Source: Ascaphus truei (Eukaryota > Chordata > Amphibia > Anura > Ascaphidae). From it: 64,000 nucleotides of DNA. Location: contig WSYH01001936.1 in the NCBI GenBank assembly GCA_036426205.1, positions 37,372 to 101,371 of the forward strand, in the 5' to 3' direction. The translations under genes and the position numbers were made by a program. The first letter of the stretch is position 1; the number at the start of each line of letters is the position of its first letter. This document shows positions 1,641 to 56,499 of this stretch, one piece after another. The notes under the pieces were generated by a model. It was not told the DNA's origin. It did no database searches and saw nothing but the letters and a program-made list of their open reading frames with translations.

Positions 1641-1940
1641 ATCAATTGTGAGCACATTCAAATGCTTAGAAAGGTCTGCAAACCCTGCCATTCTCACCAT
1701 TATTCCCACATACAGTGCTTCCACTGCAGCAAGGGATTCTGGGAAATGACATGCAAATGAGCAACACTGTCCCTTTTGTCTGAAAATCCATTGTTACCTG
1801 GAGGGCCTATAAGCTAATGCTTGCTGTTAACACAGCTTTAAAAGCACAGCATGGGAATCAGATGCAAAGCCAGAAAACCATTCACAAACATGTTTCATAA
1901 CCTTAGGGTATCCTAAGTGTATGTGGTGTAACTGCTGGCT
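1641..1940 (-). repeat. Diverged hammerhead/snRNA-promoter unit
   Basis: Read on the minus strand this is a worn copy of the ~404-bp unit found at 8.2-9.6 kb and elsewhere. The octamer reads ATGCAAAT on the plus strand at 1751-1758, and the adjacent Staf/ZNF143-like site covers about 1731-1746. Toward 1876-1932 a relic of the hammerhead remains: GAAAC and the ACATGT stem III are kept, but the CTGATGA box has become CTTAGGA, so cleavage is not expected. It stands alone, outside the inverted dimers, and is more diverged than the other copies, which suggests an older insertion. Confidence 0.7.
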
Positions 1941-1986
1941 TTAATGTTCAAGACGGTAGGTTTACCATCACGTTTTAAGTTATGGT

Positions 1987-2065
1987 GCGCGCGCGCACAC
2001 ACGCACACCCACCACACACACACACCACACACACACTCTCACAATATATATATATATTGTGAGAG
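1987..2065. repeat. CA/TA microsatellite
   Basis: A (GC/CA)n tract changes into (TA)n and sits where the diverged unit meets the PLE arm. Similar CA plus TA tracts mark unit edges elsewhere in the window. Confidence 0.9.
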
Positions 2066-3573: not shown

Positions 3574-5680
3574 ATATTCATGTAAAAGAGATATGATGGT
3601 GTCACACTTAAATCAATAACATAAGTCTTGTACATGTCATTGTACATGGATCAATCGTGACCTAGAGTTATATGGAGTCAAATTCCCTCTGATCCATTGA
3701 AAATAATCACAGCTTGGAATAATTGCATGATATATGATCGGCATGTTCCTTTTTTGGGAAGTTATGCCTGATGTTTTCTTACAGTTGTTTTCATCTCTGA
3801 ATGAGAGATCTGATGTTATAACTCTCCGTATCGGCATGTAGGCAGTAAGTCCTTTCAGTGGTGTCCAATCCGTGGATTATATGGATATGTTTCAATCTTT
3901 TGGGGACTCAGTGTATAAGTTCAGGACCCTGTAGACAGGCAAATCCACGCTTCTGTTGGTCTTGTGTTGTTTCAAACCCAGACTCTGTGGATAAACAGGG
4001 AGAAGTGGGAGAGGTAGAGAAGAGGGAGTGTATGAGATTCTCATCATATTAATCTGTGTATAAGCATAACTAGGTACAAGAAAAGTTAGTGAAGTAGTCA
4101 GATTGAGCGGTGGTTATCTCGCCTATAAGAACATGGAGAAGCCCAGGTAGTCGTTAAGGCCCCGTGGTATCATTGAGTCCATTTGGAACAATCCACCTGA
4201 CTCCCTACGTAAAAGTGCCCCTCTAAGTCACCACCTCTAAGCCCTAGGCTTACCTTCTCTATTGCGAAGGCCTGTAGGTGTTGAAGTCTGATGCATGTGT
4301 CAGAAAGAAGTGCCGGGCTACCGAGGTAATTTTTCTTGAAAGCCGGAGGTCTTTTGGTGCATTTTTAATGTTCCTCAACGTGTTCTGAGGACTATAAACC
4401 TTAGTTTCATGTGTGGTCCATCCAATATAGGGAAGCCCACAAGGACAAGTAAGCCAGTAGATAACGCCTTTGATTGCACCCAAGACATTCTTTTTGTTAA
4501 AAGTGTTAGATCTTGTTGAAATCAGTAAACACATCTGTCTTGGACATGTTCATCGACAGCGGAGCAGTTTTTACATTTAAAAAAGCCCTTCTTCTGGCTG
4601 TTGAGAGGAAGGTTTCATTGTGGGTAGGGACAAAATGACTGGTCACAAGTTTATCCCTAAGGTTGGGGATTTACGGCTGGTCATGGTGATTTTCTGACCC
4701 AGTATCTTCTTGAGATCGGGTCAGTCTTAGAATGTTCAAGTGACTTTGAGTGTTTGGCGTACAGATGCCACTGTTTGTTGTATGTTCCTTAAAACGGATT
4801 GGTGATCTGATGTATTTTTGCTTTAGGACACAAAAGTGTCTCTCTTGGGGTATCTAAGCTTTCCTATAACCCCTCTCCACACATCGTATTGCTGTACCCT
4901 CCTGACTGAATCTTTCCCTCATCTCTCCTGCTCTCTCTGCTTGCGATGAGCCTCTCTCTGTGGATACATTGCGTTTAAGAAGCAGAATTTCGCTTTTGGG
5001 GATCCCTTAATTTGGTGTTCCCGGGTAAAGCTGATGCATGAAGTATGGCGTTGTAGCTTGTTTTTTGCGGAAATGTCGGTGTGGATGTGCCGTCTGGCCC
5101 CAAATTAATTAAAGAGATCCAAAAACCAACTCCACCTGTGTTTTACTGCAAAAAGTAAGTTTTATATTCATGTCGTTGTATTGAGAGCATCGACGAAGCC
5201 CTTAACCCGCGCAGTTCCCTGCCAGAGGATCAGCACATTGTCGATGTATCTCAACACCAACAACACGTGTTTGAGTAAAGTCCTGCATCTTCCTCAAAAA
5301 CACATNNNCCCGTTCCCACCAGCCCAGGAAGAGGTTAGCATTGGAGGGTGCACACGTAGCACCCATTGCAGTACCTCTTTTCTGCAGATAGTACTTATTC
5401 CTGAAGATAAAGTAATTATGCGTGTGAGGATAAACCTCAATAGCTTCAGGATAAGGTCCATCATCCAGCGGAGACATTCTGCATAGACAAATAGAACTGT
5501 TGTGGCGCGCAGACCATCTTCATGATCTATACAAGTATAAAGAGACTCCACATCACAGGTCGCGAGAAGTGTATTTCATCGACCGTGATGTGGGCCAAGC
5601 GCGCCAACACATCCATTGTGTCTCTAATGTAAGATTTGGAAATTCATAGGTATATGTATGGATCATCATCATTTGCACAT
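3574..5680 (-). pseudogene. Penelope-like element RT and GIY-YIG remnant
   Basis: The coding body of a Penelope-like retroelement read on the minus strand, broken by several frameshifts. From about 5640 down to 5130 the reverse transcriptase shows DVESLYT (motif A), GTAMGATCAPSNANLFLGWWE (motif B, interrupted by a 3-base N gap) and RYIDNVLILWQG (motif C). The usual YIDD reads YIDN. A connector with Pro-Gly-Thr-Pro and IPKSEIL follows near 5040-4960. The GIY-YIG endonuclease lies at 4534-4259 (VIYWLTCPCGLPYIGWTT, then an RNIKNAP segment). RT followed by GIY-YIG is the diagnostic order for endonuclease-bearing PLEs, and the spacing suggests little is missing apart from small indels. The segment 3574-4258 is presumably its 3' non-coding part. 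It sits between inverted arms. Confidence 0.8.
5306..5308. other. Three-base N gap
   Basis: Unknown bases inside the RT region of the PLE; an assembly ambiguity. Confidence 0.98.
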
Positions 5681-6581
5681 TTGTGTGTGACCACGAAAAT
5701 TAATTGTAGTAACTGTTGAGATTTCCTCTGTTGTGCGGGAACCATATATATATTATATAATATTATACCCTCTGCCCATATTATCCCCTTATTTCATCCT
5801 TATGTCAGTTTGCACACATGTCCCAGCTTCAATTTGCCTGCCTGTGATTTACTCTACTTTTATGCTTACAACAGTGGTGCTGACCACTCCATGTTTGTTT
5901 GCATGATCCCTCTGAAAGGCAGTATGTATCGCTGCTGTAACTAAGCACTGTTTCACTGTGCACACTAACTGTAGTTCTATTTAAAATGTGTTTTAATACC
6001 GATGTAACTATGCATATGTACTGTGCGATTGCAGTGATGGTTTTGGTCTCCTGATTACACGGGGCTCCTTGGAGAACAGGCGCGCGTGCGCAGTAGAGTG
6101 AGCTTAGGGATATGACTGCGCCTGGCTATGACTCGGCATAGGGCGTGCTGACCTTTGATAGGACGGCACTTGATGACGTCACGGACATGCGTACTGGCAT
6201 CGTGAGGCGCGAACTGCCCTGAGTCTGAGTGCTCAGAGATAGAGCTCCCAAACTGCCGGCAGCTCATTATATTGATCTGTTACAGCAGTGATTTAGACAG
6301 CCGCGAGTAGATGACTCCTCATGACATCACACACATGCGCAGGATGCATCAGGAAGGTACAGTTGCCAGCTTTGCCCTTCTTTGAGGGTAGAGGGCGTCC
6401 TCATGATAAGCCTCATCATTGGTCTATTAACTGTGACACCCCACAGATCCACATAGTAAGTTTGGCATACACACACCTGTTTGCTCTTTGCATTTCAGAT
6501 TTTTTGATTGAGTTCACAGTGATTACATCACTAGCCCAATTAGATTCCCTTTTTAAACATGCATGTCCCCTGCCTACCATC

Positions 6582-6624
6582 ACCACTCCCAGTAGAAGGC
6601 TCTTGGGAAACGGTAGGAGCAGGT
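6582..6624 (+). ncRNA. Hammerhead-like fold in PLE arm (degenerate)
   Basis: Same position in the arm as 2580-2625. Stem I (ACC..CTCC with GGAG..GGT) is kept, but the box reads CAGTAGA and bases are lost before and after GAAAC. An inactive relic at best. Confidence 0.3.
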
Positions 6625-6835
6625 CAGTGGCAGGATCCCTGGTTTGTCCCCCCTTGGGACAGTTACCATGCTATGAGCTTTGCTCCTTGTTTCCTCCCTC
6701 ATTCTGCCGTGTGTACCTGACGTTAGGTGATGTATCATTATTGTTGCTGCAGGCTAAGGTGTGCTTTTCCTGGCTTATATTGGTGTGTCCTTCATGATTT
6801 TCCTTGATACTGTGTCACTTTTTTATACCCTAGAC

Positions 6836-7164
6836 CAGAGGTGGGCAACCTATTTTTCAATGTAGCCACAGGTGTGGCGAATGAGAATTGAAAATTGCCA
6901 CCCATGCTTTCGTTTACTTGCGTCACTACAAATTTTTAACTTCCCATAAAAAATAACGTTCAAGGTCGGGGTCTAGACCCCAGCTGAAGGCAGAGGGGAG
7001 TAGTATTGGATGGCTGTGTGCGTCATGACTCATTCCAAGAGGAAGCCAGACACGCCATCAGGAAAACGTTTATCTTACTGTGGGAGCTGGCAAGCTCAAA
7101 TTCGCCACACTTTCATGGCCAATTCGCCATTTGTGGCGATTGGCGACAGGGTTGCCCACCTTGG
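6836..7164. mobile_element. hAT-like non-autonomous element
   Basis: A 329-bp insertion with terminal inverted repeats: CAGAGGTGGGCAACC at the left, and GGTTGCCCACCTTGG at the right, its imperfect complement. Both sides carry the same 8-bp duplication, CCCTAGAC (6828-6835 and 7165-7172). Eight-base duplications and CAG-type ends are hAT hallmarks. There is no transposase, so it is a MITE moved in trans. The empty site at 2367-2374 confirms the boundaries. Confidence 0.88.
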
Positions 7165-7604
7165 CCCTAGACTCAAGGGGGATAGAAGTGTGCTGTTATT
7201 TTTTGTATTGACCACGTAGCCTTAGCCACCTCTGTTTGCCTGTTGTCAGCTCACTGTGTTAACCTTGTCAGGTACTTAGAGCCTTTATCTGTCAATTTGG
7301 CAATTGCATTGTTCCCATTGGGATATATTTGTTGGAGGATTATAAAGTTCTGCTAGGACATGGGATCCATGCCTATTTTAATTTTCTGTGCTTTGTTTTT
7401 TAACTTTTGTTCTGTGAAACAATTAAAAAAATTATGTGATTTTGTAGCTGCCAGCATATTAGAGTGCTTTTTGTTCAGGCTCTTTTTCTCTCACAATTTA
7501 CCTGCCCTTATAGCACCACCGACATATCACTGTGATAGATTAACTCTGTCGGAATTAGTTGCCATTATCTGTCTTGTGGATTGCGGGGTCCTCCTTCTCT
7601 CACA

Positions 7605-7611
7605 AAAATAA

Positions 7612-7656
<45 letters not shown>

Positions 7657-7690
7657 TATATATTATATATATATATATAATGTATGCTTT
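7605..7690. repeat. TA microsatellite
   Basis: A nearly uninterrupted TA tract joins the PLE arm to the first hammerhead unit. The same join with its own TA tract recurs near 13215-13295, 27035-27115 and 52376-52437. Confidence 0.92.
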
Positions 7691-7826
7691 ATGTGGAGGG
7701 TTTTTGGTCACTTTTTTACCACCATAACCTATGCAGTGGTGATTACCTAGTCTAGTCTCAAACCTGATAGCCATGAGACCAGCCTCACACTGATGATTAC
7801 CATAAGGTTGATAACAATGTACTGCT
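7691..7826 (+). repeat. PSE/hammerhead part of unit, split by MITE
   Basis: The promoter-proximal half of a ~404-bp unit. The PSE-like box (accataacct) is near 7719, and the hammerhead core CTGATGA is at 7790-7796 after ctcaca. The 3' part is disturbed (gataac instead of gaaac) and the unit is then interrupted by the MITE at 7826. Confidence 0.7.
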
Positions 7827-8218
7827 TGACACCACTTTATTCGAGCAAATACCCAGTATGTATCTGGCAGAACCTGGAATGCGCCGCTCCTCACCTCTGA
7901 CAAGCCTGTTGCATTTGCCTTCCCAGCCTGGTTATGCCTGGCTAATGGCGGCTGATCTGTTTTAAATGATAATGATTAGGATTTAATAGGCTGCAATGCT
8001 TCGCGTGTCTACCAGATGGCATAAATTCATGAATGTATGCAGTATATATATATTATATATATCTATATATACTGTGCAGTATTGCAGCCAGCAGAATAAA
8101 ATGCTCAACCTGCCTGGAAAATAACTCAAGTGCACTCGGGCAGAAAACAGTCACAAACCTCAATACCACCCGGTATACCCGAATTCGTGGGGACTAGCCG
8201 TCGATAAAGTGTGTCGCC
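7826..8218. mobile_element. MITE with CGACACACTTTATTCGAGC ends
   Basis: A ~390-bp insertion inside a hammerhead unit, ending in inverted repeats close to CGACACACTTTATTCGAGC and its complement. It has no coding capacity and holds a central TA tract near 8042-8072. Copies lie at 13440-13837, 26499-26893 (inverted), 42920-43303 (solo) and 52583-52980. The solo copy in unrelated flanks supports calling it an element in its own right. The family is not identified and I could not define a target duplication. Confidence 0.65.
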
Positions 8219-8350
8219 AGTGTCTGTGAGTAGGTCTAATGGCTTGCATCTCATCCCAGCCTCTTTTAAAGCTGGTTTAAAACAGATGCCTTGGCTTGGG
8301 ATTGGCTTGTTGTAATACGAGCTTGAGACAAAAGGTGGCACTGAGTGCTC

Positions 8351-8381
8351 ATTTGCATGTCATTTCCCAGAATCCCTTGCT
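8351..8381 (+). promoter_or_regulatory. snRNA-type DSE: octamer plus Staf-like site
   Basis: ATTTGCAT is a perfect Oct-1 octamer. The following 18 bases fit the known Staf/ZNF143 consensus at every position but the last. The pair is the composition of a vertebrate snRNA or selenocysteine-tRNA distal sequence element. Activity is inferred. Confidence 0.6.
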
Positions 8382-8519
8382 GCAGTGGAAGTGCGTATGC
8401 TGGTGGACAATGGGGAAAGACAGGGTTTGCAGAACTGTCTAAGACATGCAAATGAACATACAGTAATATTTACAGTTGCTTTATGCTTTACGTGGAGGGT
8501 TTTTGTCACTTTTTTTACC

Positions 8520-8537
8520 CACCTAACCTTAATGACA
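8520..8537 (+). promoter_or_regulatory. PSE-like box
   Basis: cacctaaccttaatgaca resembles the vertebrate snRNA PSE, of which the U6 version is ACCGTAACTTGAAAGT. Its distance to the octamer (169 bp) matches the DSE-PSE distance of snRNA genes. No TATA box follows, which would favour Pol II. Confidence 0.5.
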
Positions 8538-8578
8538 GTGTGTGATTACCTAGTCTAGTCTCAAACCTGCTAGCCATT

Positions 8579-8645
8579 AAGACCAGCCTCACATGATGAT
8601 ACCCATCAAGGTGAAATGAAACATGTATGTGAGTAGGTAATGGCT
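8579..8645 (+). ncRNA. Hammerhead ribozyme, damaged copy
   Basis: The stem I strands, TGATGATACCCATCAAGG and GAAACATGTATGTGAG are recognisable, but the C of the CTGATGA box is missing and extra bases (aaatg) precede GAAAC. Probably inactive, unless these are read errors. Confidence 0.5.
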
Positions 8646-8880
8646 TTGCATCTCATCCCAGCCTCTGTTTAAAACTGTGTTTAAAACAGCATGCATTGGC
8701 TTGAGGTTGGTTTGTGTAATACCAGCTTGAGACAAAAAGGGTGGCATGAGTGCTCATTTGCATGCATTTCCCAGAATCCCTTGCTGCAGTGGAATGCTGT
8801 ATGCTGGGTGACAATGGGGAAAGACAGGGTTGGAGACCGTCTAAGACATGCAAATGAACATACAGTAATATTTACAGTTG

Positions 8881-8945
8881 ATATATATATATATATAATA
8901 TAAATATATATGCAATATATGCAAATATATATATACTTATAGCAA
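8881..8945. repeat. TA-rich centre of inverted unit pair
   Basis: A TA/TGCAAATATA tract at the symmetry point between two plus-strand and two minus-strand units. Confidence 0.85.
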
Positions 8946-9596
8946 ATATAGCTGTATGCTCATCTGCATGTCTTAGCAGGTCTGCACACCCCGCCTTTCC
9001 CCATTATCACCCAGCAATACAGCACTTCCCTGCAGCAAGGGATTCTGGGAAATGACATGCAAATGAGCACACAGTGGTTCACTTTTGCCTCAATAACCAT
9101 TTTTAACATGGTTCCCCTATAGGCTAGCTTGCTGCATGGTCACAGCTTTGAGCACAGTCAGGGTTTAAGGTGCATACCCAGAAAACCACCACAGGACAGC
9201 TGTTTGACCTTGATGGGTCTCATCAGTGTGGGGTTGATTTTTAATGGGAATGCAAGAGAGGCTTATGGGATAGGCCAAACCATAATACTGAGTTAAGTTA
9301 TGGTGAGTAAAAAAGTGACAAAAACCCTCCACAGGAAAGCAAATATGCAAATATAGATGTATGCTCATCTGCATGTCTAGGCAGGTCTGCAACCCCGCCT
9401 TTCCCCATTGTCACCCAGCATACAGCGCTTCCACTGCAGCAAAGGATTCTGGGAAATGACATGCAAATGAGCACTCAGGTCACCTTTTGGTCTCAAGCTC
9501 GTTTACACAAGCCATCCTCAAGCCAATGATGCTTTTTAAACAAAGCTTTTTAGACCGGAGGCTGGGAGGATGATGGCAGATGGGATAAAATAAAAA
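8946..9596 (-). repeat. Two minus-strand hammerhead/snRNA-promoter units
   Basis: Two units in the opposite direction, period 404 bp (octamer complements at 9057-9064 and 9461-9468). These belong to a second sequence type (HHR-2), with a body beginning around agctgtcctgtggtgg on the minus strand. Their PSE-like box (caccataacttaactcag, minus strand near 9285-9305) is closer to the snRNA consensus than in the plus-strand units. The distal unit runs into a CA tract and then the Tigger terminus. Confidence 0.8.
9185..9241 (-). ncRNA. Hammerhead ribozyme type HHR-2, one-base deletion
   Basis: On the minus strand CTGATGA, stem II GACC/GGTC and the palindromic stem III ACAGCTGT with a GTC cleavage triplet are all present. 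GAAAC has lost its G, one of the invariant core bases. The same loss is seen in the duplicate at 14802-14858, as expected from the duplication. Confidence 0.6.
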
Positions 9597-9765
9597 ATAT
9601 ACACACCACACACACCAACACACACACACAGCACACACAACCACCCACACACAACACCACACACACACACACACACACACACATCGACATCACAGAGATA
9701 CACATATATATATATATAATATATATATATATATAGATTATATATATAATATATATATATACACA
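9597..9765. repeat. CA and TA microsatellites
   Basis: A (CA)n tract with interruptions is followed by (TA)n, directly abutting the Tigger terminus. ORFs across it are low-complexity artefacts. Confidence 0.9.
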
Positions 9766-10285
9766 CAGGTAAACCCCGTGTATAACGTGATCGATTGTTT
9801 TATAACGCGGTTTTTTCCGTGTCCCCGTTTTAAAAAAAAAAAAATTTAAATTTAAAAATTTTTTTTTTTTGCCACTCTGCACACACACTGCCTCATTGCT
9901 CACACTGACACACACTGCTTTGCTCACATCACACACTGACAACGCCTCCATTCTCACACTGCACACTGCACACCACCTCATTGACTCACACTTGCACACA
10001 CTTGCACACTGCTCATTGCTCACACTGCACACACTGACACACAGCACCACACCACTGCTCACATGCTCATGCCACACTGCTCACACTGCTCACACTGACA
10101 CACACTGTCATTGCTCAACACTGACACCACGGCCATTGCTCACACTGCACAACACTGCTCACACTGACACACTGCACACACTGCAAACACACACACACAC
10201 ACACACACCCTCCCAATACACATATACATATCAGCCTTACCTTGGGGATGCATTTGGTGAGGCATGTGCGGCCGTGCAGCGGGGG
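9766..10285 (+). mobile_element. Tigger 5' end, truncated
   Basis: It begins with the Tigger-type terminus CAGGTAAACCCCGTGTATAA, a subterminal copy of the motif (ttataacgcgg) and an A/T tract. Degenerate tandem repeats of cacactg/ctcattg follow (about 9880-10200), then the conserved segment ccttaccttggggatgcatttggtgagg. It breaks off after gcagcggggg, where the complete copies continue into a GC-rich leader. No transposase is left. Confidence 0.8.
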
Positions 10286-10675: not shown

Positions 10676-11243
10676 TTCTTGAAAATCCGTCGGCTTGTGG
10701 GGTGTGCCGTCTGCCCCAAATTAATAAAGAGATCCAAAAAAACTCCACGTGTGTTTTACTGCAACTAAAAGTAAGTTTTATATTCATGTCGTTTTGATTG
10801 AGAGCATCGACGAAGCCCTTGAACCCCGCGGCAGTTCCCTGCCAGAGGATCAGCACATTGTCGATGTATCTCAAACCAACAACAACGTGTGAGTAAAGTC
10901 TGCATTCTCCTCAAAACACAATTTTCCGTTCCCACCAGCCCAGAAGAGGTTAGCATTGGAGGGGTGCACACGTAGCACCCATTCAGTACCTCTTTTCTGC
11001 AGTAGTACTTATTCCTGGAGTAAAGTAATTATGCTGAGGATAAACCTCAATAGCTTCAGGATAAGGTCCTCAATCCAGCGGAGACATCTGCATAGAAAAT
11101 AGAACTGTGTGTGCGCCGCAACCATCTTCATGATCTATACAAGTTAAAAGAGACTCCACACACACAGTCGCGAGAAGTGTATTCCATCGACCGTGATGTG
11201 GGCCCGCCGCCAACACATCACATTGTGTCTCTAATGTACAGAT
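10676..11243 (-). pseudogene. Second PLE reverse transcriptase fragment
   Basis: It repeats the same RT region (equivalent to about 5080-5635) in the same orientation and includes motif C as RYIDNVLILWQGT. It has more frameshifts than the adjacent fragment and stops at the N gap. YIDN is shared by all RT copies here, so it was present before the copies separated. Confidence 0.75.
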
Positions 11244-11295
11244 NNNNNNNNNNNNNNNNNNNNNNNNNNNNNNNNNNNNNNNNNNNNNNNNNNNN
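11244..11295. other. Assembly gap (52 N)
   Basis: A run of N exactly at the left edge of the second copy of a ~4.6 kb duplicated block. Confidence 0.98.
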
Positions 11296-12192
11296 GTGTG
11301 TGACCACGAAAATTAATTGTAGTAACTGTTGAGATTTCCTCTGTTGTGCGGGAACCATATATATATTATATAATATTATACCCTCTGCCCATATTATCCC
11401 CTTATTTCATCCTTATGTCAGTTTGCACACATGTCCCAGCTTCAATTTGCCTGCCTGTGATTTACTCTACTTTTATGCTTACAACAGTGGTGCTGACCAC
11501 TCCAGTTTGTTTGCATGATCCCTCTGAAAGGCAGTATGTATCGCTGCTGTATACTAAGCACTGTTTCACTGTGCACACTAACTAGTTCTATTTAAAATGT
11601 GTTTTAATACCGATGTAACTATGCATATGTACTGTGCGATTGCAGTGATGGTTTTGGTCTCCTGATTACACGGGGCTCCTTGGAGAACAGGCGCGCGTGC
11701 GCAGTAGAGTGAGCTTAGGGATATGACTGCGCCTGGCTATGACTCGGCATAGGGCGTGCTGACCTTTGATAGGACGGCACTTGATGACGTCACGGACATG
11801 CGTACTGGCATCGTGAGGCGCGAACTGCCCTGAGTCTGAGTGCTCAGAGATAGAGCTCCCAAACTGCCGGCAGCTCATTATATTGATCTGTTACAGCAGT
11901 GATTTAGACAGCCGCGAGTAGATGACTCCTCATGACATCACACACATGCGCAGGATGCATCAGGAAGGTACAGTTGCCAGCTTTGCCCTTCTTTGAGGGT
12001 AGAGGGCGTCCTCATGATAAGCCTCATCATTGGTCTATTAACTGTGACACCCCACAGATCCACATAGTAAGTTTGGCATACACACACCTGTTTGCTCTTT
12101 GCATTTCAGATTTTTTGATTGAGTTCACAGTGATTACATCACTAGCCCAATTAGATTCCCTTTTTAAACATGCATGTCCCCTGCCTACCATC

Positions 12193-12235
12193 ACCACTCC
12201 CAGTAGAAGGCTCTTGGGAAACGGTAGGAGCAGGT
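12193..12235 (+). ncRNA. Hammerhead-like fold in PLE arm (degenerate)
   Basis: Duplicate of 6582-6624, with the same CAGTAGA box and damaged GAAAC region. Confidence 0.3.
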
Positions 12236-12446
12236 CAGTGGCAGGATCCCTGGTTTGTCCCCCCTTGGGACAGTTACCATGCTATGAGCTTTGCTCCTTG
12301 TTTCCTCCCTCATTCTGCCGTGTGTACCTGACGTTAGGTGATGTATCATTATTGTTGCTGCAGGCTAAGGTGTGCTTTTCCTGGCTTATATTGGTGTGTC
12401 CTTCATGATTTTCCTTGATACTGTGTCACTTTTTTATACCCTAGAC

Positions 12447-12768
12447 CAGAGGTGGGCAACCTATTTTTCAATGTAGCCACAGGTGTGGCGAATGAGAATT
12501 GAAAATTGCCACCCATGCTTTCGTTTACTTGCGTCACTACAAATTTAACTTCCCATAAAAAATAACGTTCAAGGTCGGGTCTAGACCCCAGCTGAAGGCA
12601 GAGGGGAGTAGTATTGGATGGCTGTGTGGCGTCAATGACTCATTCCAAGAGGAAGCCAGACACGCATCAGGAAAACGTTATCTTATGTGGGAGCTGGCAA
12701 GCTCAAAATTCGCCACACTTTCATGGCAATTCGCCATTGTGGCGATGGCGACAGGGTGCCCACCTTGG
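12447..12768. mobile_element. hAT-like element, second copy
   Basis: Same element and same 8-bp CCCTAGAC duplication (12439-12446, 12769-12776) as 6836-7164, carried along by the block duplication. Confidence 0.88.
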
Positions 12769-13235
12769 CCCTAGACTCAAGGGGGATAGAAGTGTGCTGT
12801 TATTTTTTGTATTGACCACGTAGCCTTAGCCACCTCTGTTTGGCCTGTTGTCAGCCTCACTGTGTTAACCTTGTCAGGTACTTAGAGCTTTATCTTGTCA
12901 ATTTTGGCAATTGCATTGTTCCCATTGGGATATATTTGTTGGAGGATTTATAAAGTTCTGCTAGGACATGGGATCCATGCCCTATTTTAATTTTCTTGCT
13001 TTGTTTTTTAACTTTTGTTCTGTGAAAACAACTTAATAAAAATTATGTGATTTTGTACTGCCAGCATATTAGAGTGCTTTTTGTTCAGGGCTCTTTTTCT
13101 CTCACAATATTTACTGCCCTTATAGCACCACCGACATATCACTGTGATAGATTAACTCTGTCGGAAATTAGTTGCCATTATCTGTCTGTGGATTGCGGGG
13201 TCCTCCTTCTCTCACAAAATATAAAATATATATAT

Positions 13236-13270
<35 letters not shown>

Positions 13271-13295
13271 TATATATTATATATATATATATAAT

Positions 13296-13440
13296 GTATG
13301 CTTACTGTGGAGGGTTTTTGGTCACTTTTTTACCACCATAACCTAATGCAGTGGTGATTACCTAGTCTAGTCTCAAACCTGACTAGCCATGAGACCAGCC
13401 TCACACTGATGATTACCCATAAGGTTGAGAACAATGTACT
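13296..13440 (+). repeat. PSE/hammerhead part of unit, split by MITE
   Basis: Duplicate of 7691-7826. The CTGATGA core is at 13406-13412 and the GAAAC position reads GAGAAC. It is followed by the MITE. Confidence 0.7.
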
Positions 13441-13837
13441 GCGTGACACCACTTTATTCGAGCAAATACCCAGTATGTATCTGGCAGATACCTGGAATGC
13501 GCCGCTCCTCACCTCTGACAAGCCTGTTGCATTTGCTTCCCAGCCTGGTTCATGCCTGGCTAATGGGCGGACTGATCTGTTTTAAATGATAATATTAGGA
13601 TTTAATAGGCTGCAATGTTGCGTGTCTACCAGATGGCATAAATTCATGAATGTAATGCAGTATATATATATTATATATACTATATATACTGTGCAGTATT
13701 GCAGCCAGCAGGAATAAAATGCTCAACCTGCTGGAAAATAACTCAAGTGCACTCGGGCAGAAAAACAGTCACAAACCTCAATACACACCCGGTATACCCG
13801 AATTCGTGGGACTAGCCGTCGATAAAGTGTGTCGGCC
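13440..13837. mobile_element. MITE with CGACACACTTTATTCGAGC ends
   Basis: Duplicate of 7826-8218, with a central TA tract near 13660-13690 and no coding capacity. Confidence 0.65.
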
Positions 13838-14500
13838 AGTGATGCGTGAGTAGGTCTAATGGTTGCATCTCATCCCAGCCTCTTTTAAAGCTGGTTTTAA
13901 AACAGCATGCCTTGGTTGGGGATTGGCTTGTTGTAATACGAGCTTGAGACAAAAGGTGGCACTGAGTGCTCATTTGCATGTCATTTCCCAGAATCCCTTG
14001 CTGCAGTGGAAGTGCGTATGCTGGGTGACAATGGGGAAAGACAGGGTTTGCAGAACTGTCTAAGACATGCAAATGAACATACAGTAATATTTACAGTTGC
14101 TTTATGCTTTACTGTGGAGGTTTTTGTCACTTTTTTTACCCACCTAACCTTAATGACAGTGGGATACCTAGTCTAGTCTCAAACCTGCTAGCCATTAAGA
14201 CCAGCCTCACATGATGATACCCATCAATGTGAATGAAACATGTATGTGAGTAGGTAATGGCTTTGCATCTCATCCCAGCCTCTGTTTAAAACTGTGTTTA
14301 AAACAGCATGCATTGGCTTGAGGTTGGTTTGTGTAATACCAGCTTGAGACAAAAAGGGTGGCATGAGTGCTCATTTGCATGCATTTCCCAGAATCCCTTG
14401 CTGCAGTGGAATGCTGTATGCTGGGTGACAATGGGGAAAGACAGGGTTGGAGACCGTCTAAGACATGCAAATGAACATACAGTAATATTTACAGTTGATA
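13838..14500 (+). repeat. Two plus-strand hammerhead/snRNA-promoter units
   Basis: Octamers at 13972-13979 and 14373-14380 (401-bp period), each with the Staf-like site. The hammerhead at 14196-14262 lacks the C of CTGATGA, as in the first block. Confidence 0.82.
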
Positions 14501-14559
14501 TATATATATATATAATATAAATATATATGCAATATATGCAAATATATATATACTTATAG

Positions 14560-15215
14560 CAAATATAGCTGTATGCTCATCTGCATGTCTTAGCAGGTCT
14601 GCACACCCCGCCTTTCCCCATTATCACCCAGCAATACAGCACTTCCCTGCAGCAAGGGATTCTGGGAAATGACATGCAAATGAGCACACAGTGGTTCACT
14701 TTTGCCTCAATAACCATTTTTAACATGGTTCCCCTATAGGCTAGCTTGCTGCATGGTCACAGCTTTGAGCACAGTCAGGGTTTAAGGTGCATACCCAGAA
14801 AACCACCACAGGACAGCTGTTTGACCTTGATGGGTCTCATCAGTGTGGGGTTGATTTTTAATGGGAATGCAAGAGAGGCTTATGGGATAGGCCAAACCAT
14901 AATACTGAGTTAAGTTATGGTGAGTAAAAAAGTGACAAAAACCCTCCACAGGAAAGCAAATATGCAAATATAGATGTATGCTCATCTGCATGTCTAGGCA
15001 GGTCTGCAACCCCGCCTTTCCCCATTGTCACCCAGCATACAGCGCTTCCACTGCAGCAAAGGATTCTGGGAAATGACATGCAAATGAGCACTCAGGTCAC
15101 CTTTTGGTCTCAAGCTCGTTTACACAAGCCATCCTCAAGCCAATGATGCTTTTTAAACAAAGCTTTTTAGACCGGAGGCTGGGAGGATGATGGCAGATGG
15201 GATAAAATAAAAAAT
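14560..15215 (-). repeat. Two minus-strand hammerhead/snRNA-promoter units
   Basis: Octamer complements at 14674-14681 and 15078-15085 (404-bp period). The HHR-2 hammerhead lies at 14802-14858 on the minus strand with the same missing G of GAAAC. CA and TA tracts follow to 15385. Confidence 0.8.
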
Positions 15216-15385
15216 ATATCACACCACACACACCAACACACACACACAGCACACACAACCACCCACACACAACACCACACACACACATCACACACACACA
15301 CATCGACATCACACGAGATACACATATATATATATATAATATATATATATATATAGATTATATATATAATATATATATATACACA

Positions 15386-15906
15386 CAGGTAAACCCCGTG
15401 TATAACGTGATCGATTGTTTTATAACGCGGTTTTTTCCGTTGTCCCCGTTTTAAAAAAAAAAAAATTTAAATTTAAAAATTTTTTTTTTTTGCCACTCTG
15501 CACACACACTGCCTCATTGCTCACACTGACACACACTGCTTTGCTCACATCACACACTGACAACGCCTCCATTCTCACACTGCACACTGCACACCACCTC
15601 ATTGACTCACACTTGCACACACTTGCACACTGCTCATTGCTCACACTGCTCACACTGACACACAGCACCACACCACTGCTCACATGCTCATGCTCACACT
15701 GCTCACACTGCTCACACTGACACACACTGTCATTGCTCAACACTGACACCACGGCCATTGCTCACACTGCACAACACTGCTCACACTGACACACTGCACA
15801 CACTGCAAACACACACACACACACACACACCCTCCCAATACACATATACATATCGCCTTACCTTGGGGATGCATTTGGTGAGGCATGTGCGGCCGTGCAG
15901 CGGGGG
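15386..15906 (+). mobile_element. Tigger 5' end, truncated (second copy)
   Basis: Same terminus, tandem cacactg repeats and breakpoint as 9766-10285. Here the break is joined directly to the inner edge of a PLE arm. Confidence 0.8.
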
Positions 15907-25120: not shown

Positions 25121-25401
25121 CTATCCACATCGCCATTCATCCCAGCCCTCGGTCTAAAAGACTGTGTTTAAAAAGCATGCATTGGCTTGAGGATGGCTTG
25201 TGTATACGAGTTTGAGACAAAAGGTGACCACTGAGTGCTCATTTGCATGTCATTTCCCAGAATCCTTTGCTGCAGTGGAAGCGCTGTATGCTGGGTGACA
25301 ATGGGGAAGGCGGGGTTGCAGACCTGCCTAGACATGCAGATGAGCATACAGCTATATTTGCATATTTGCTTTCCTGTGGAGGGTTTTGTCACTTTTTTAC
25401 T

Positions 25402-25419
25402 CACCATAACTTAACTCAG
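25402..25419 (+). promoter_or_regulatory. PSE-like box (best copy)
   Basis: caccataacttaactcag shares ACC-TAACTT-A with the U6 PSE (ACCGTAACTTGAAAGT). It lies 161 bp downstream of the octamer and ahead of an intact hammerhead, so a start about 50-60 bp downstream would fall just before the ribozyme. Inference from motif and spacing. Confidence 0.55.
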
Positions 25420-25470
25420 TATTATGGTTTGGCCTATCCCATAAGCCTCTCTTGCATTCCCAATAAAAAT

Positions 25471-25521
25471 CAACCCCACACTGATGAGACCCATCAAGGT
25501 CGAAACAGCTGTCGTGGTTGG
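25471..25521 (+). ncRNA. Hammerhead ribozyme type I (HHR-2), intact core
   Basis: All core elements are canonical. CTGATGA is at 25481-25487, stem II is GACC/GGTC with a CATCAA loop, and GAAAC is at 25502-25506. Stem III is the palindrome ACAGCTGT and ends in the preferred cleavage triplet GTC (25511-25513). Stem I pairs CCAC with GTGG and the outer CCAA with TTGG. Other copies read TGTGTGG or CTGTGG here, so this copy may have lost two or three stem I bases. The short palindromic stem III is typical of retroelement and satellite hammerheads, which may act as dimers. Cleavage is inferred. Confidence 0.75.
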
Positions 25522-25790
25522 TTTTCTGGGAATGCACCTTAAACCCTGACTGTGCTCAAAGCTGTGACCATGCAGCAAGCTGAAGCCTATAGGGGAACCA
25601 TGTTAAAAATGGTTATTGAGGCAAAAAGTGACCACTGTGTGCTCATTTGCATGTCATTTCCAGAATCCCTTGCTGCAGCCGGAAGTGCTGTAGTGCTGTG
25701 GGTGATAATGGGGAAAGGCGGGGTGTGCAGACCTGCTAAGACATGCAGATGAGCATACAGCTATATTGCTATAAGATATATAGATTTGCA

Positions 25791-25835
25791 TATATTTGCA
25801 TATATATTTATATATATATATATATTATATAACTG
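25791..25835. repeat. TA-rich centre of inverted unit pair
   Basis: The symmetry point between the plus and minus units of this block. Confidence 0.8.
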
Positions 25836-26498
25836 TAAATATTACTGTATGTTCATTTGCATGTCTTAGACAGGTCTGTCCAACCCTGTCTTTCCCCATT
25901 GTCACCCAGCATACAGCACTTCCACTGCAGCAAGGGATTCTGGGAAATGACATGCAAATGAGCACTCAGTGCCACCCTTTTGTCTCAAGCTCGTATTACA
26001 CAAACCAATCCTCAAGCCAATGCATGCTGTTTTAAACACAGCTTTTAAACAGAGGCTGGGATGAGATGCAAAGCCATTAGACCTACTAAATACATGTTTC
26101 ACCTTGATGGGTATCATCGTGTGAGGCTGGTCTTAATGGCTAGCAGGTTGAGACTAGACTAGGTAATCACCACTGTCATTAAGGTTAGGGTGGGAAAAAA
26201 AGTGACAAAAACCCTCCACAGTAAAGCATAAAGCAACTGTAAATATACTGTATGTTCATTTGCATGTCTTAGACAGGTTGCAAACCCTGTCTTTCCCCAT
26301 TGTCACCCAGCATACCGCACTTCCACTGCAGCAAGGGATTCTGGGAAATGACATGCAAATGAGCACTACAGTGCCACCTTTTGTCTCAACTCGTATTACA
26401 CAAGCCAATCCTCAAGCCAAGCATGCTGTTTTAAACACAGCTTTTAAAAACAGAGCTGGGAGTGAGATGCAAGCCATTAGACCTACTCACAGCACACT
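25836..26498 (-). repeat. Two minus-strand hammerhead/snRNA-promoter units
   Basis: Octamer complements at 25952-25959 and 26353-26360 (401-bp period), with Staf-like sites. They are the HHR-1 sequence type, like 8219-8880. Confidence 0.82.
26072..26140 (-). ncRNA. Hammerhead ribozyme (HHR-1), two one-base losses
   Basis: On the minus strand the long stem I (GCCATTAAGACC with GGTCTAATGGC) is well kept and GAAACATGTA is intact. The T of CTGATGA and one T in stem II are missing. If those are read errors it would match the good copy at 28302. Confidence 0.6.
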
Positions 26499-26893
26499 GG
26501 CGACACACTTTCTTCGAGCTCGGCTAGTCCCAGAATTCGGGTATACCGGGTGTATTGAGGTTTGTGACTGTTTTCTGCCGAGGTGCACTTGAGTTATTTT
26601 CAGGCAGGATTGAAGCCTTTTATTCCTGCTGGCTGCAATACTGCACAGTATATATAGATATATATATATAATATATACTGCCATACAATTCATGAATTAT
26701 GCCATCTGGTAGACACGCGACATTGCAGCCTATTAAATCCTAATCATTATCATTTAAACAGATCAGTCCGCCCATTAGCCAGGCATGAACCAGGCTGGGA
26801 AGCAAATGCAACAGGCTTGTCAGAGGTGAGGAGCGGCGCATCAGGTATCTGCCAGAACATACTGGGTATTTGCTAGAATAAAGTGGTGTCACA
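26499..26893. mobile_element. MITE with CGACACACTTTATTCGAGC ends (inverted)
   Basis: Inverted copy of 7826-8218, again splitting a hammerhead unit at the same point. Confidence 0.65.
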
Positions 26894-27034
26894 GCAGTAC
26901 ATTTTCAACCTTGATGGGTAATAATCAGTGTGAGGTGGTCTCAATGGCTAGCAGGTTTGAGACTAGGACTAGGTAATCACCACTGTATAAGGTTATGGTG
27001 GTAAAAAAAGTGACAAAAAACCCTCCACATTATA
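26894..27034 (-). repeat. PSE/hammerhead part of split unit
   Basis: The minus-strand counterpart of 7691-7826. The box reads CTGATTA (one core change) and GAAAC reads GAAAA. Inactive relic. Confidence 0.65.
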
Positions 27035-27115
27035 GCAACAATTATATATATATATATATATATAATATATATATATATATAATATTATATATATATATTA
27101 TATATTTATATTTTT
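27035..27115. repeat. TA microsatellite
   Basis: A TA tract between split unit and arm, as at 7605-7690. Confidence 0.9.
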
Positions 27116-28103: not shown

Positions 28104-28301
28104 AAGCCCCGTTGCATTTGCCTTCCCAGCCTGGGTTCATGCCTGGCTAATGGGCGGCTGATCTGTTAAATGATAATGATTAGGATTTAATAGGCTGCAA
28201 TGCTTCGCGTGTCTACCAGATGGCATAAATTCATGAATTGTAATGCAGTATATATATATATATACTGTGCAGTATTGCAGCCAGCGGGAATAAAATGTCT
28301 A

Positions 28302-28372
28302 GCCATTAAGACCAGCCTCACACTGATGATACCCATCAAGGTTGAAACATGTATGTGAGTAGGTCTAATGGC
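28302..28372 (+). ncRNA. Hammerhead ribozyme type I (HHR-1), best stem I
   Basis: CTCACA before and TGTGAG after the core form a perfect 6-bp stem I. It is extended past an AGC/TA internal loop by GCCATTAAGACC against GGTCTAATGGC, with one bulge. CTGATGA is at 28323-28329, stem II is ACC/GGT with a CATCAA loop, and GAAAC is at 28344-28348. Stem III is the palindrome ACATGT and the cleavage triplet is GTA, after 28353. The first pair of stem II is T-T instead of the usual G-C, which may lower activity. Type I with short stem III matches newt satellite 2 and PLE hammerheads. Confidence 0.75.
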
Positions 28373-28484
28373 TTTGCATCTCATCCCAGCCTCTGTTTAA
28401 AAGCTGTGTTTAAAACAGCATGCATTGGCTTGAGGATTGGCTTGTGTAATACGAGCTTGAGACAAAAGGTGGCACTGAGTGCTC

Positions 28485-28515
28485 ATTTGCATGTCATTTC
28501 CCAGAATCCCTTGCT
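28485..28515 (+). promoter_or_regulatory. snRNA-type DSE: octamer plus Staf-like site
   Basis: ATTTGCAT followed by TTCCCAGAATCCCTTGCT, identical to the copy at 8351-8381. No PSE survives downstream because Tigger B interrupts the unit. Confidence 0.55.
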
Positions 28516-29639
28516 GCAGTGGAAGTGCTGTATGCTGGGTGACAATGGGGAAAGACAGGGTTGCAGACCTGTCTAAGACATGCAAATGAACATACAGTAA
28601 TATTTACAGTTGCTTTATCACACACTGCTCATTGCTCACACTGACACACACTGCACACTGCACACAGCACACACTCTCACTGCACACACAGCCCAAGACC
28701 CACACACACAGACCCAGCAGCTGCACTATACACACTAGTAATGGTATATCCCTGTGTGTCACGTTCTACAAAGTTAAATGCAAATCCATGGGTTCATGGG
28801 TATCTCTCCTCCTACAAAGCCCATATTTCAGGGTATATTCTTCTCTTACGAAATTTGAAAATGTAATTCAAAATTCTACATTTTGCTTTGACTTGTTAAC
28901 TCGATGAAACTCACAGTGTAATAAAATCAGATATGTGATCAGTTGCACATACTGTATATTTTTGTGCTGTGTGAAGCACAGAGTAAATTGGCAGCGCTCT
29001 ATAAAAGTAAGTACAGTACTGTACTGTACCGGCTCTTACCTGTCTTAAAACGAGCAGCCTTACTAAAGCCCTCCAGTCCCCCTCTTAGCAGGGGATGATG
29101 CAGCAGAATGATAAGGGGGATAACAGCACATCCCGACAGCGAACAGTCTTACACAGTGATTCAGGCACCCCTCATGTTCGTGCGGCTCGTGAGGTGTGGA
29201 TGTTGGCTGCCAGTTCCCTCTGCTCCTCTGCGGTTCGTCGTGTAATGACCCAGCGGGGTCATGTGACGTCACGGCATGGCAATGTGACCCTGCGGGGTCA
29301 TTTTACACCAGTTAAAGTGGCACAAACATGACATTAAAGTTTGTTAAAAAGATTAAAAATTGAATAAAAATTAACACAAATGAAGTGATCACATATACCC
29401 TGTATAATACAAAAAAAAATACTGTGTGTAAAATAGAATCAAACATTGTAATAAAGTGACACGTACACACACCTCTGACCCCTCTGCCATTTTAATCCTA
29501 CAACACACTGTGCTGTCTGAGAGCTGGTAAAATACATACTGTACTCAGGTACTGTACTTAAGCCCTCCAGATCAGTTGTTAAAAGCCTCAGGTTTTTAAC
29601 ACTAGGAAAAGGCATACTGAAGACCCCTGGCAGGTAGAA

Positions 29640-52437: not shown

Positions 52438-52582
52438 GTATGCTTTATGTGGAGGGTTTTGTCACTTTTTTTTAACACCATAAACCTTAATGACGTGGTG
52501 ATACCTAGTCTAGATCTCAAACCTGCTAGCCATTGAGACAGCCTCACACTGATGATACCCATCAGGTTGAAACAATGTACTG
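52438..52582 (+). repeat. PSE/hammerhead part of unit, split by MITE
   Basis: A hammerhead core with intact CTGATGA (52549-52555), stem II and GAAAC, but followed by AATGTACTGC before the stem I strand. It has one base less in the stem II loop. The unit is then interrupted by the MITE. Confidence 0.7.
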
Positions 52583-52980
52583 CTGTGACAACTTTATTCG
52601 AGCAACTACCCAGTATGTATCTGGCAGATACCTGGAATGCGCCGCTATCAACCTCTGAAAGCCCTGTTGCATTGCCTTCCCAGCCTGGTCATGCCTGGCT
52701 TAATGGGCGGCTGATCTGTTAAATGATAATGATTGGTTTAATAGGGCGGATGCTTCGCGTGTCTACCAGATGGCATAAATTTTTCATGAATGTAATGCAT
52801 CAGTATATATATATAATATATTATAATACTGTGCAGTATTGCCGCCGAGGAATAAAATGCTTTCAATCCCTGCTGGAAAAATACTCAATGCACTCGGGCA
52901 GAAAACAGTCACAACACCTCAATACAACCGGGTATACCGAATTCGTGGGACTAGCCGAGCTCGAATAAAGTGTTTCGACA
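52583..52980. mobile_element. MITE with CGACACACTTTATTCGAGC ends
   Basis: Fifth copy, in the same position of the unit as at 7826, 13440 and 26499. Confidence 0.65.
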
Positions 52981-53640
52981 GTGATGTGAGTAGGTCTAAT
53001 GGCTTTGCATCTCATCCCAGCCATCTGTTTTAAAAGCTGTTGTTTAAAACAGCATGCATTGGCTTGAGGATTGGCTTGTGTAATACGAGCTGAGACAAAG
53101 GTGGCACTGAGTGGCTCATTTGCATGTCATTCCCAGAATCCTTGCTGCAGTGGAAGTGCTGTATGCTGGGTGACAATGGGGAAAGACAGGGTTGCAGACC
53201 TGTCTAAGACATGCAAATGAACACAGTAATATTTACAGTGCTTTTATGCTTTACTTGTGGAGGGGTTTTTGCACTTTGTTTTACCCACCATAACCTAATG
53301 ACAGTGGTGATTACCTAGTCTAGTCTCAAACCTGCAGCCATTAAGACAGCCTCACCACTGATGAACCCATCAAGGTTGAAACAGTGATGTGAGTAGGTTC
53401 TAATGGCTTTGCCATCTCATCCCAGCCTCTGTTTAAAAGCGTGTTTAAAACAGCATGCATTGGCTTGAGGATTGGTTTGTGTAAACGAGCTTGGACAAAA
53501 GGTGGCACTGAGTGCTCATTTGCATGTCATTTCCAGAATCCCTTGCTGCAGTGGAAGTGCTGTATGCGGGTGACCAGGGGAAAGACAGGGTTGCAGACCT
53601 GTCTAAGACATGCAAATGAAATACAGTAATATTCTAGTTA
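52981..53640 (+). repeat. Two plus-strand hammerhead/snRNA-promoter units
   Basis: Octamers at 53118-53125 and 53518-53525 (400-bp period). The PSE-like caccataacctaatgaca is at 53286-53303 (168 bp from the octamer) and the hammerhead core is 72 bp downstream. Confidence 0.83.
53341..53402 (+). ncRNA. Hammerhead ribozyme (HHR-1), near-intact
   Basis: CTGATGA is at 53358-53364, stem II ACC/GGT with a CATCAA loop, and GAAAC at 53378-53382. Stem I is CTCAC against GTGAG with an extra C, and stem III reads ACAGTGAT instead of ACATGTAT. It is linked to an intact PSE and octamer upstream, so it is the most complete promoter-ribozyme pair of the HHR-1 type. Confidence 0.65.
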
Positions 53641-53706
53641 TATATATATTATATATTATAAAATATATGCAAATATATGAAGTATATATATATATATGCA
53701 AATATA
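53641..53706. repeat. TA-rich centre of inverted unit pair
   Basis: The symmetry point as at 8881-8945. Confidence 0.8.
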
Positions 53707-54345
53707 GCGTGATGCTCATCGCATGTCTTAGGCAGGTCTGCAACCCGCCTTCCCATTATAACCCAGCATACAGCACTTCCACTGCAGCAAGGGATTCTGG
53801 AGGAATGACATGCAATGAGCACACAGTGTCACTTTTTGCCTCAATAACCATTTTTAACATGGTTCCCTATAGTAGCTTTAAGCTGCTGCATGGTCACGCT
53901 TTGAGCACACGTCAGGGTAAGGTGCATACCCAGAAAACCACACAGACAGCTGGTTTCGACCTTGATGGTCTCCATCAGTGTGGGGTTTGATTTTACTTGG
54001 AATGCAAGAGAGCTTATGGGATAGGCCAAACCATAATACTGAGTTAAGTTATGGTGAGTAAAAAAAAGTGACAAAAAACCTCCACAGGAAAGCAAATATG
54101 CAAATATAGCTGTATGCTCTCGCTGTCTAGGCAGGTCGCAACCCCGCCTTTCCCATTGTCAACCAGCATACAGCGCTTCCACTGCAGCAAAGGATTTGGG
54201 AAATGACATGCAAAGAAGCACTCCAGTGTCACCTTTGGCTCAAGCTCGTATTACACAGCCAATCCTCAAGCCAATGCATGCTGTTTTTAAACACAGCTTT
54301 TAGACCGAGGCTGGGATGAGATGCAGATGGGATTATATAGTGTAT
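53707..54345 (-). repeat. Two minus-strand hammerhead/snRNA-promoter units
   Basis: HHR-2 type units. Both octamers are damaged (tgcaatga near 53811, atgcaaag near 54208). A PSE-like box is on the minus strand near 54040-54058. Confidence 0.75.
53939..53990 (-). ncRNA. Hammerhead ribozyme (HHR-2), one extra base
   Basis: On the minus strand: CTGATGGA (one inserted G), stem II GACC/GGTC, intact GAAAC, CAGCTGTC and a clean stem I (CACA against TGTG). Apart from the insertions it supports the HHR-2 consensus, including TGTG after the GTC triplet. Confidence 0.6.
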
Positions 54346-56230: not shown

Positions 56231-56265
56231 ATGAATGAAAAATAATTAGATGGGATAAGTAGTCG

Positions 56266-56276
56266 GAGGGGGAGGG

Positions 56277-56311
<35 letters not shown>

Positions 56312-56385: not shown

Positions 56386-56419
<34 letters not shown>

Positions 56420-56463: not shown

Positions 56464-56499
<36 letters not shown>

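Follow-up and report, generated by a model that had tools for sequence, protein, structure and literature searches.

How could a short repeat that is copied through RNA keep a promoter lying upstream of its transcribed part? The question is raised by a stretch of 64,000 nucleotides from the anuran Ascaphus truei (assembly GCA_036426205.1, contig WSYH01001936.1, positions 37,372 to 101,371; called the window here), in which units of about 404 bp combine motifs of a small nuclear RNA (snRNA)-type promoter with a hammerhead ribozyme. Here, we follow these units through the 2.82-Gb genome. They are probably metazoan retrozymes: non-autonomous retroelements of ~405-bp tandem units, in which a type I hammerhead goes with an snRNA-type promoter lying within each complete unit, and which would follow the cycle proposed below. 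The element appears to be small, recently active and RNA-borne, and to belong to a known kind, with a promoter plan like that of newt satellite 2.

The units in the window

The units lie in four blocks, in each of which two arms of different class, one to two units long, face each other across a TA-rich tract. The first block contains the following features (PSE, proximal sequence element; the unit classes U2 and U1 are introduced in the next section).

7683..8880, + strand: U2-class retrozyme copy between TA tracts (nhmmer unit map; part unit 7683-7821, rest 8220-8880)
about 7822-8220: unrelated ~400-bp repeat interrupting the U2-class copy (copies like that in locus L029 join the homologues of 7821 and 8221 directly)
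8350..8385, + strand: distal element, with octamer 8351-8358 and Staf/ZNF143-like site 8364-8380, identical in three lineage consensuses
8494..8532, + strand: conserved T-rich box (8494-8519) and PSE-like motif (~8517-8532), the latter one base short of the family consensus
8583..8637, + strand: type I hammerhead of the U.U (HHR_Amex2-like) class, damaged by small insertions and deletions (indels), with the predicted transcription start at about its 5' edge
8755..8789, + strand: further octamer+Staf block, within the part-unit that closes the copy at its 3' end
8862..8880, + strand: element 3' end (ACAGTAATATTTACAGTTG, then TA tract), the putative reverse-transcription start
8881..8941, no strand: TA-rich tract separating the two facing copies, the putative target
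8942..9570, - strand: opposite-strand retrozyme copy, consisting of a U2-like part unit (9346-9570) and, after it, a U1-class unit (8942-9342)
9184..9237, - strand: type I hammerhead lacking one core base, of the GACC/GGTC (HHR_Amex1-like) class
9290..9330, - strand: box and PSE-like motif (ACTCACCATAACTTAACTC)
9434..9469, - strand: octamer+Staf block upstream of the U1-class hammerhead

The motif ATTTGCAT occurs 40 times in the window, where 5.8 occurrences are expected; none of 100 shuffles reaches 40. Edit-distance scans located 18 octamer+Staf blocks (at most 8 edits of 36 nt; 15 of the 18 have 0-1 edits), 13 sites resembling the hammerhead core (at most 6 edits of 25 nt) and 12 instances of the box in front of the PSE-like motif. 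The octamer-to-octamer spacing is 405, 401, 404 and 400 bp for the pairs on the + strand and, by subtraction, 404, 404, 401 and 400 bp for those on the - strand, as the 400-405 bp given for all four blocks in a first-pass annotation had it. The order octamer, Staf site, PSE-like box, hammerhead claimed there is likewise correct wherever a unit is complete. The same annotation spoke of about 18 units of this order, a number that fits the octamer+Staf blocks and overstates the complete units: the box and hammerhead lie downstream on the same strand at only 8 of the 18 blocks (8350, 9434-, 13971, 15051-, 25240, 26326-, 53117 and 54182-). Nine blocks fall within the last part-unit before a copy's 3' end, and the one at 1724- is part of an old relict copy.

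Because the four blocks are related by duplication, their units are not independent; the stretches 5083-10285 and 10700-15906 are 96% identical, and the remaining two blocks are 92% and 86% copies. The contig is unplaced, with a 1-kb G run and many small indels, which account for several broken ribozymes.

A dispersed family with three sets of units

A DNA search of the genome with window positions 8229-8886 produced 4,914 candidates, of which 40 were scored, giving 68 matches; among the scored candidates, the best matches outside the window are 91-95% identical and lie on many contigs. Two sets of loci were examined. One (L009-L028) consists of 20 ten-kb loci around the first 20 genomic matches to the hammerhead model RF00163, and the other (L029-L040) of 12 young loci of 3-4 kb, hand-picked from high up in the DNA match list and located on six contigs (C1, C2, C3, C4, C18 and C13824). 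Unit mapping yielded 110 unit matches, 60 of them long. Units of the U2 class, found in L029-L040, are 93-100% identical to one reference unit (gaps ignored), with mean substitution distances of 2.2% between and 1.5% within copies. Units of the U1 class are mostly 91-97% identical to their reference, two units in L014 being at 79-84%, and a third set, U0, is older than both classes. Lineage consensuses for U2, U1 and U0 were built from 28, 8 and 13 of the 60 long units, leaving out 10 window units and one poor match.

Dispersed short tandem units with type I hammerheads are what is expected of a metazoan retrozyme of the non-LTR (long terminal repeat) kind, and the unit length of ~400-406 bp is at the upper edge of the published range (~170-400 bp). 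The axolotl retrozymes Rtz_331 and Rtz_353, as described in PMC7229834, similarly have two ribozyme classes, short dispersed tandem units and Penelope-like elements (PLEs) in the same genome; by that description they differ in unit length, 331 and 353 bp as against 400-406 bp here. The promoter elements, common 3' end and TA target of the present units, as read from DNA sequence, are described below.

The hammerhead ribozyme

Within the 64-kb window, no hammerhead reaches the Rfam gathering score; the best RF00163 match, at 25476-25517, has 24.5 bits against a cut-off of 34. In the genome, 344,898 first-look candidates were obtained and 74 of them scored; the 42 matches listed among these all exceed the cut-off, and 14 control genomes gave none. 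U1-class units score 40.5 (L021), 40.5 (L022) and 38.8 bits (L028). The covariance-model check suggested in the first-pass annotation thus fails for the window copies and succeeds for their relatives, and the type I identity proposed there is borne out by these matches elsewhere in the genome and by the existence of two ribozyme classes. U1-class copies of the family reach the gathering score, and three stems surround a conserved core whose columns are invariant or nearly so. Cleavage is predicted after unit position 145, in a numbering of 406 positions that begins right after the common 3' end.

In an alignment of 39 of the 58 hammerhead segments, the three-stem structure is paired in 93.1% of cells, a figure raised by the omission of rows most of which had indels, compared to 22-38% in slid controls. 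Cells changed on both sides of a pair number 7, versus 2.3 in shuffles (0 of 500 reach 7). By published description (PMC7229834), the U1-class ribozyme resembles HHR_Amex1 of axolotl in its one-pair helix III with a palindromic tetraloop, and the U2-class ribozyme resembles HHR_Amex2 in the U.U at the base of helix II.

A probable snRNA-type promoter inside the unit

The roles of the PSE, octamer and ZNF143 site in snRNA genes are treated in PMC3499247, and the position of the PSE in PMC3544641. For comparison, we used the U6 (L047), U2 snRNA (L042) and 7SK genes of this genome. The U6 gene has an octamer-like ATTTGCA at -264 (also at -212 and -157), a Staf-like site at -251, a PSE-like CCCTAACGTAA at -59 and TATATTA at -28; the U2 snRNA gene has CCCTAAAGCG at -62, and the 7SK gene has the similar TCTCCCTA. 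Among five U6 loci, L047 is the only one with an snRNA-type promoter: by eye, L049 and L050 are without one, and in L048 and L051 the gene start was not located by pattern.

The distal element of such a promoter, an octamer with a Staf/ZNF143 site, is present in the units as far as sequence can tell. The Staf stretch of the U6 gene matches the units at the predicted place, to a degree reached by 0, 1 and 0 of 300 shuffles for the three consensuses. Three-way identity of the consensuses is 0.69 overall, 1.00 for octamer plus Staf, 0.95 for the box and 0.88 for the inverted octamer, falling to 0.76 for the PSE, 0.76 for the hammerhead, 0.44 for the spacer between hammerhead and octamer, and 0.18 for that between PSE and hammerhead. 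The longest run identical in all three lineages, 47 columns, is the distal element (column shuffles: mean 14.0, maximum 31, 0 of 2000 as long), and the box before the PSE contains a run of 19 columns. The distal element is under stronger constraint than the ribozyme, despite the selection of U0 and U1 loci with the hammerhead model; the PSE is not.

The PSE is only suggestive, in that its position and orientation speak for it and its score alone does not. A matrix hand-aligned from the U6, U2 snRNA and 7SK genes ranks the predicted PSE first of all sites in the U2- and U1-class consensuses and fourth in U0; in all three, it is the top site on the + strand and lies 160-167 nt past the octamer. 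The U6 PSE taken alone also finds its best match at the predicted site in all three. By hand alignment, transcription is predicted to start at unit position 105 (U2 snRNA spacing) or 102 (U6 spacing), and because the hammerhead begins at about position 104, the predicted start abuts the ribozyme.

Newt satellite 2 is a type I hammerhead repeat cited with an RNA polymerase (Pol) II snRNA promoter (PMC2220036). By description (PMC7229834, PMC2220036), it differs from the present units in its length of ~330 bp and in that its promoter is reported from experiment, whereas ours is predicted. A type I hammerhead, an octamer and Staf site, and a PSE-like box spaced as in snRNA genes support the likeness to satellite 2 put forward in the first-pass annotation, with which the constraint on the distal element agrees as well. 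The scan for promoter elements suggested along with it confirmed the distal element and gave a PSE score no better than in shuffles.

Which polymerase would transcribe the units? Given the T runs in the consensuses and the newt precedent, we favour Pol II over Pol III. The runs, T5/T6 and T7, lie between the distal element and the PSE, and a Pol III transcript should terminate at them, ahead of the second hammerhead. This preference is tempered by TATA-like letters ~25 and ~37 bases (hand count) before the predicted start in the U1-class consensus. A candidate 3' box downstream of the hammerhead (in the U2 class, GTTTAAAACAG) was dropped on account of its three-way identity of 54%.

A predicted hairpin near the 3' end

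The octamer and the inverted octamer are complementary, and in RNA they are predicted to form a stem of 13-19 bp just before the 3' end. The last ~135 nt of the unit have predicted folds of -59, -70 and -66 kcal/mol in the three consensuses. In an alignment of 31 of 43 rows, with six too-short units and the window rows dropped beforehand, pairing is 91.4%, versus 33-49% in slid controls; covariation in the 31 rows is not clearly above shuffles (RNAalifold was also run). A second, RNA-level role of the octamer/Staf block is possible.

If the block acts in RNA, need it be a promoter at all? Perhaps the units are retrozymes without a working promoter, transcribed by read-through from genes nearby, with the octamer/Staf block retained only as an RNA-hairpin recognition site for the reverse transcriptase. 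One review indeed describes animal retrozymes as seemingly promoterless, and the predicted stem and the stability of its domain speak for such a site. Against it, the Staf site is kept letter for letter and the covariation is weak, and the box before the PSE, which lies outside the hairpin, is conserved too. In addition, the Pol II snRNA promoter cited for newt satellite 2 (PMC2220036) and a promoter reported in the LTR of a plant retrozyme (PMC9695139, PMC12029980) are precedents for the opposite case. We regard the promoterless alternative as unlikely.

Common 3' ends and probable unit-length templates

Where do the copies begin and end? Among copies longer than 150 bp, 40 of 52 end at position 380 or later of the 406 (the window's related copies included). 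A strict TA tract adjoins 17 of these 40 late-ending copies versus 2 of the 12 others; the same context occurs in 0.8% of random 30-mers from the same sources. At the RF00163-selected loci, which are free of any 3'-end bias, 17 of 26 copies end at 380 or later, with a TA-rich flank at 6 of the 17 versus 1 of the 9 others. The young loci join TA tracts in 10 of 12 cases (nine end at 403-406 and L037 ends at 55), in a set slightly biased towards that 3' end by a DNA query that reached six bases into the TA tract. End positions of old copies are uncertain, as similarity fades and some continue into a further unit. The 5' ends are scattered. Five copies (L029, L030, L034, L036 and L039) begin at unit positions 2-29, nearly a whole number of laps away from the 3' end, and L036 passes through the hammerhead three times.

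Variants were compared among the units of 11 young copies, leaving out the window and L034, a palindrome that includes its flanks. In 21 cases, all the units of a copy agree; a further 10, not singletons, are mixed, and 52 more are singletons. In the 24 long units, there are 20 uniform cases, versus a mean of 3.4 and a maximum of 12 in 2000 label shuffles. Such uniformity within copies, along with variants that tend to differ from one copy to another, is expected from repeated laps on a unit-length template, probably a circular one. By itself it fits a circle, other unit-length bottlenecks or later homogenisation alike. In a literature search conducted mostly at the level of listings, we found neither unit uniformity nor a common 3' end in TA tracts described for animal retrozymes.

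Several of these results weigh against promoter-bearing retrozymes copied in this way. The U2-class hammerheads in L029, L030, L036 and L039 are not listed by RF00163 even at E<=1. In the hammerhead alignment, 18 of the 39 rows are from loci that had been selected by the hammerhead model, a choice that favours paired copies; the alignment's covariation score is reached by 36 of 500 shuffles, its number of pairs changed on both sides by 23 of 500, and its further pair types by 472 of 500. The full 31-nt distal element of the U6 gene, placed without gaps, finds its best match elsewhere in the units. Of 500 shuffles, 240, 226 and 497 have a best site that equals or exceeds the PSE matrix score; the U6 PSE match is equalled or exceeded in 172, 49 and 174 of 300 shuffles, and the PSE of the U2 snRNA gene alone has no match at the predicted site. 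As the conserved block is self-complementary in RNA, its constraint need not mean promoter function. Among the 12 young loci, L034 and L040 have no TA junction; the 10 non-singleton cases show a mixture of variants among the units of a copy; and L032 and L038 have two variants in common at the same unit rank, which points to dimeric templates as an occasional occurrence. Finally, no PLE with the unit's 3' end was seen in the stretches examined.

A proposed cycle

How, then, would the promoter survive passage through RNA? In the cycle that we propose, Oct-1 and Staf on the distal element and SNAPc on the PSE would initiate transcription by Pol II where the hammerhead begins, at its 5' edge. Read-through RNA over at least one unit would meet the next hammerhead, and two cuts would free an RNA of unit length, with the distal element and PSE retained, which would then be ligated into a circle. 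Circular retrozyme RNA has been published for axolotl. A reverse transcriptase, perhaps that of the co-resident PLE, would start at a TA-rich target, from one internal point just 3' of the stable hairpin predicted for the octamer and inverted octamer, and would make one to about three laps. The common 3' end, the TA flank and the within-copy uniformity are read directly in the copies, while the enzyme and the direction of events are our inference. The new tandem copy would again have a promoter upstream of its hammerhead. With a circle as template, the element would keep an upstream promoter that a linear transcript would lose.

The combination of these steps is a more tentative proposal than the retrozyme identity, and the odds are somewhat against its being right in every part. 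In it, an upstream Pol II promoter of snRNA type would be retained by way of a ribozyme-made RNA circle, a hammerhead at the start site would cut the leader from the unit, and rolling reverse transcription from a fixed point would restore the promoter. That reverse transcription would be primed at TA-rich DNA, beside a hairpin formed in RNA by the distal promoter element itself. If so, the distal element would serve twice, as DNA for Oct-1 and Staf and as RNA for the reverse transcriptase. The genome thus yields a testable proposal, consisting of a distal promoter element more constrained than the ribozyme, a defined reverse-transcription start, a defined target and the signature of a unit-length template, and its young, near-identical copies are available for an assay of each step.

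Relation to Penelope-like elements

The retrozyme paper leaves the identity of the reverse transcriptase (RT) open; PLEs are the suspected helpers (PMC7229834), and one PLE is described as starting reverse transcription internally, at AT-rich DNA (PMC11167929). Both points would fit the present units. The window contains RT fragments that we take, from their motifs, to be PLE-like: one (10118-10633-) matches RVT_1 weakly and below the cut-off (E 0.009), and nothing in Pfam matches the other three. A search with the window's RT piece yielded 150 matches from the 150 candidates scored (36,316 in all); several of these matches lie in frames of 806-852 aa.

Are the units then part of the PLE itself? 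If they were its pseudo-LTRs (pLTRs), the retrozyme would be the terminal repeat of an autonomous element. RT fragments of PLE type do adjoin units in the window, close relatives of this RT are numerous in the genome (frames of up to 852 aa), and minimal hammerheads are known in PLE pLTRs (PMC11167929, PMC7761336). PLEs with such hammerheads, as described in PMC11167929, also share with the units a tandem organisation, an AT-rich target and an internal reverse-transcription start; they differ in that helix III is present in the hammerhead here and that no PLE-coding sequence was found beside the 12 young copies. In ~1.2 kb on each side of those copies, nothing matches the PLE/Tigger flanks of the window, except for 62 bp in L037. 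RT or endonuclease (EN) fragments of this PLE family are found in only 3 of the 20 ten-kb loci, 1.6, 2.8 and 4.4 kb from the main unit copies; no unit borders an open reading frame of this PLE family in the loci examined. Two 270-base stretches of its 3' sequence (L053 and L054) show no unit by eye, more distant families not having been sought. A pLTR origin is improbable on this evidence and was rejected, and the composite with PLE arms in which the first-pass annotation saw the units embedded is not supported as a property of the element. An origin as ordinary satellite DNA, amplified by unequal crossing-over and spread by larger duplications with hammerhead and promoter as relics, is similarly improbable: units in the window do spread by segmental duplication and newt satellite 2 was first described as satellite DNA (PMC7229834), but dispersed copies of about two to three units, ~2% substitutions apart, occur on several chromosomes, and the young ones mostly share a 3' end in TA tracts without the window's flanks.

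The PLE-like family is itself young. Its best copies (on C2, C8318, C13423 and others) are 93-99% identical over ~113 RT residues; frames reach 852 aa, with one odd frame of 5082 aa at C1:77787489. Copies are clustered on C13423, C11443 and C13949, and C10 has an inverted pair of 3' parts.

Other copies and features

The remaining retrozyme copies in the window are as follows.

1648..2016, - strand: old diverged copy, 67-68% to either reference unit
13299..14497, + strand: U2-class copy of the second block, a duplicate of that in the first
14559..15187, - strand: U2-like part unit and U1-class unit, second block
25121..25768, + strand: U2-like part unit and U1-class unit, third block, with the hammerhead core (25481-25505) intact
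25831..27037, - strand: U2-class copy, third block
28296..28613, + strand: partial U2-class copy whose hammerhead (28312-28365) has the common U2-class sequence and whose 3' end does not adjoin a TA tract
52439..53633, + strand: U2-class copy, fourth block
53696..54327, - strand: U2-like part unit and U1-class unit, fourth block

Four of the window copies (8942-9570, 14559-15187, 25121-25768 and 53696-54327) have a hybrid look: their 5' part unit is U2-like and the unit after it is of the U1 class. A template switch between two retrozyme families, perhaps within the octamer/Staf block that both have, could have produced this arrangement. All four copies are probably duplicates of a single event. 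A separate dispersed repeat of ~390 bp is nested in the first unit of the window's U2-class copies; it is seen at 7822-8220, 42930-43307 and 28102-28297 of the window and at 4395-4782 of L018.

Inverted neighbours occur in 7 of 33 sources. Head-to-head pairs are present in four loci (L012 4759-5365, L017 4800-5158, L033 2011-3157, which includes a poor match, and L038 1215-2007) and resemble 5' inversions by twin priming. Tail-to-tail pairs are present in L027 (4568-5281), L034 and the window. All of L034 is a palindrome that takes in the flanks of the retrozyme copy, either a real inverted duplication or an assembly artefact.

About 1.07 kb of the window, at 56268-57336, is mostly G; with the many small indels elsewhere in the contig, it is probably raw-read sequence or an artefact. 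On the + strand, 29583-31325 is an open frame for a pogo/Tigger-like transposase of 581 aa (DDE_1, HTH_Tnp_Tc5), whose best match is an Ascaphus truei protein (70%), and transposase-related stretches also lie within 20177-24040 and 55329-60074.
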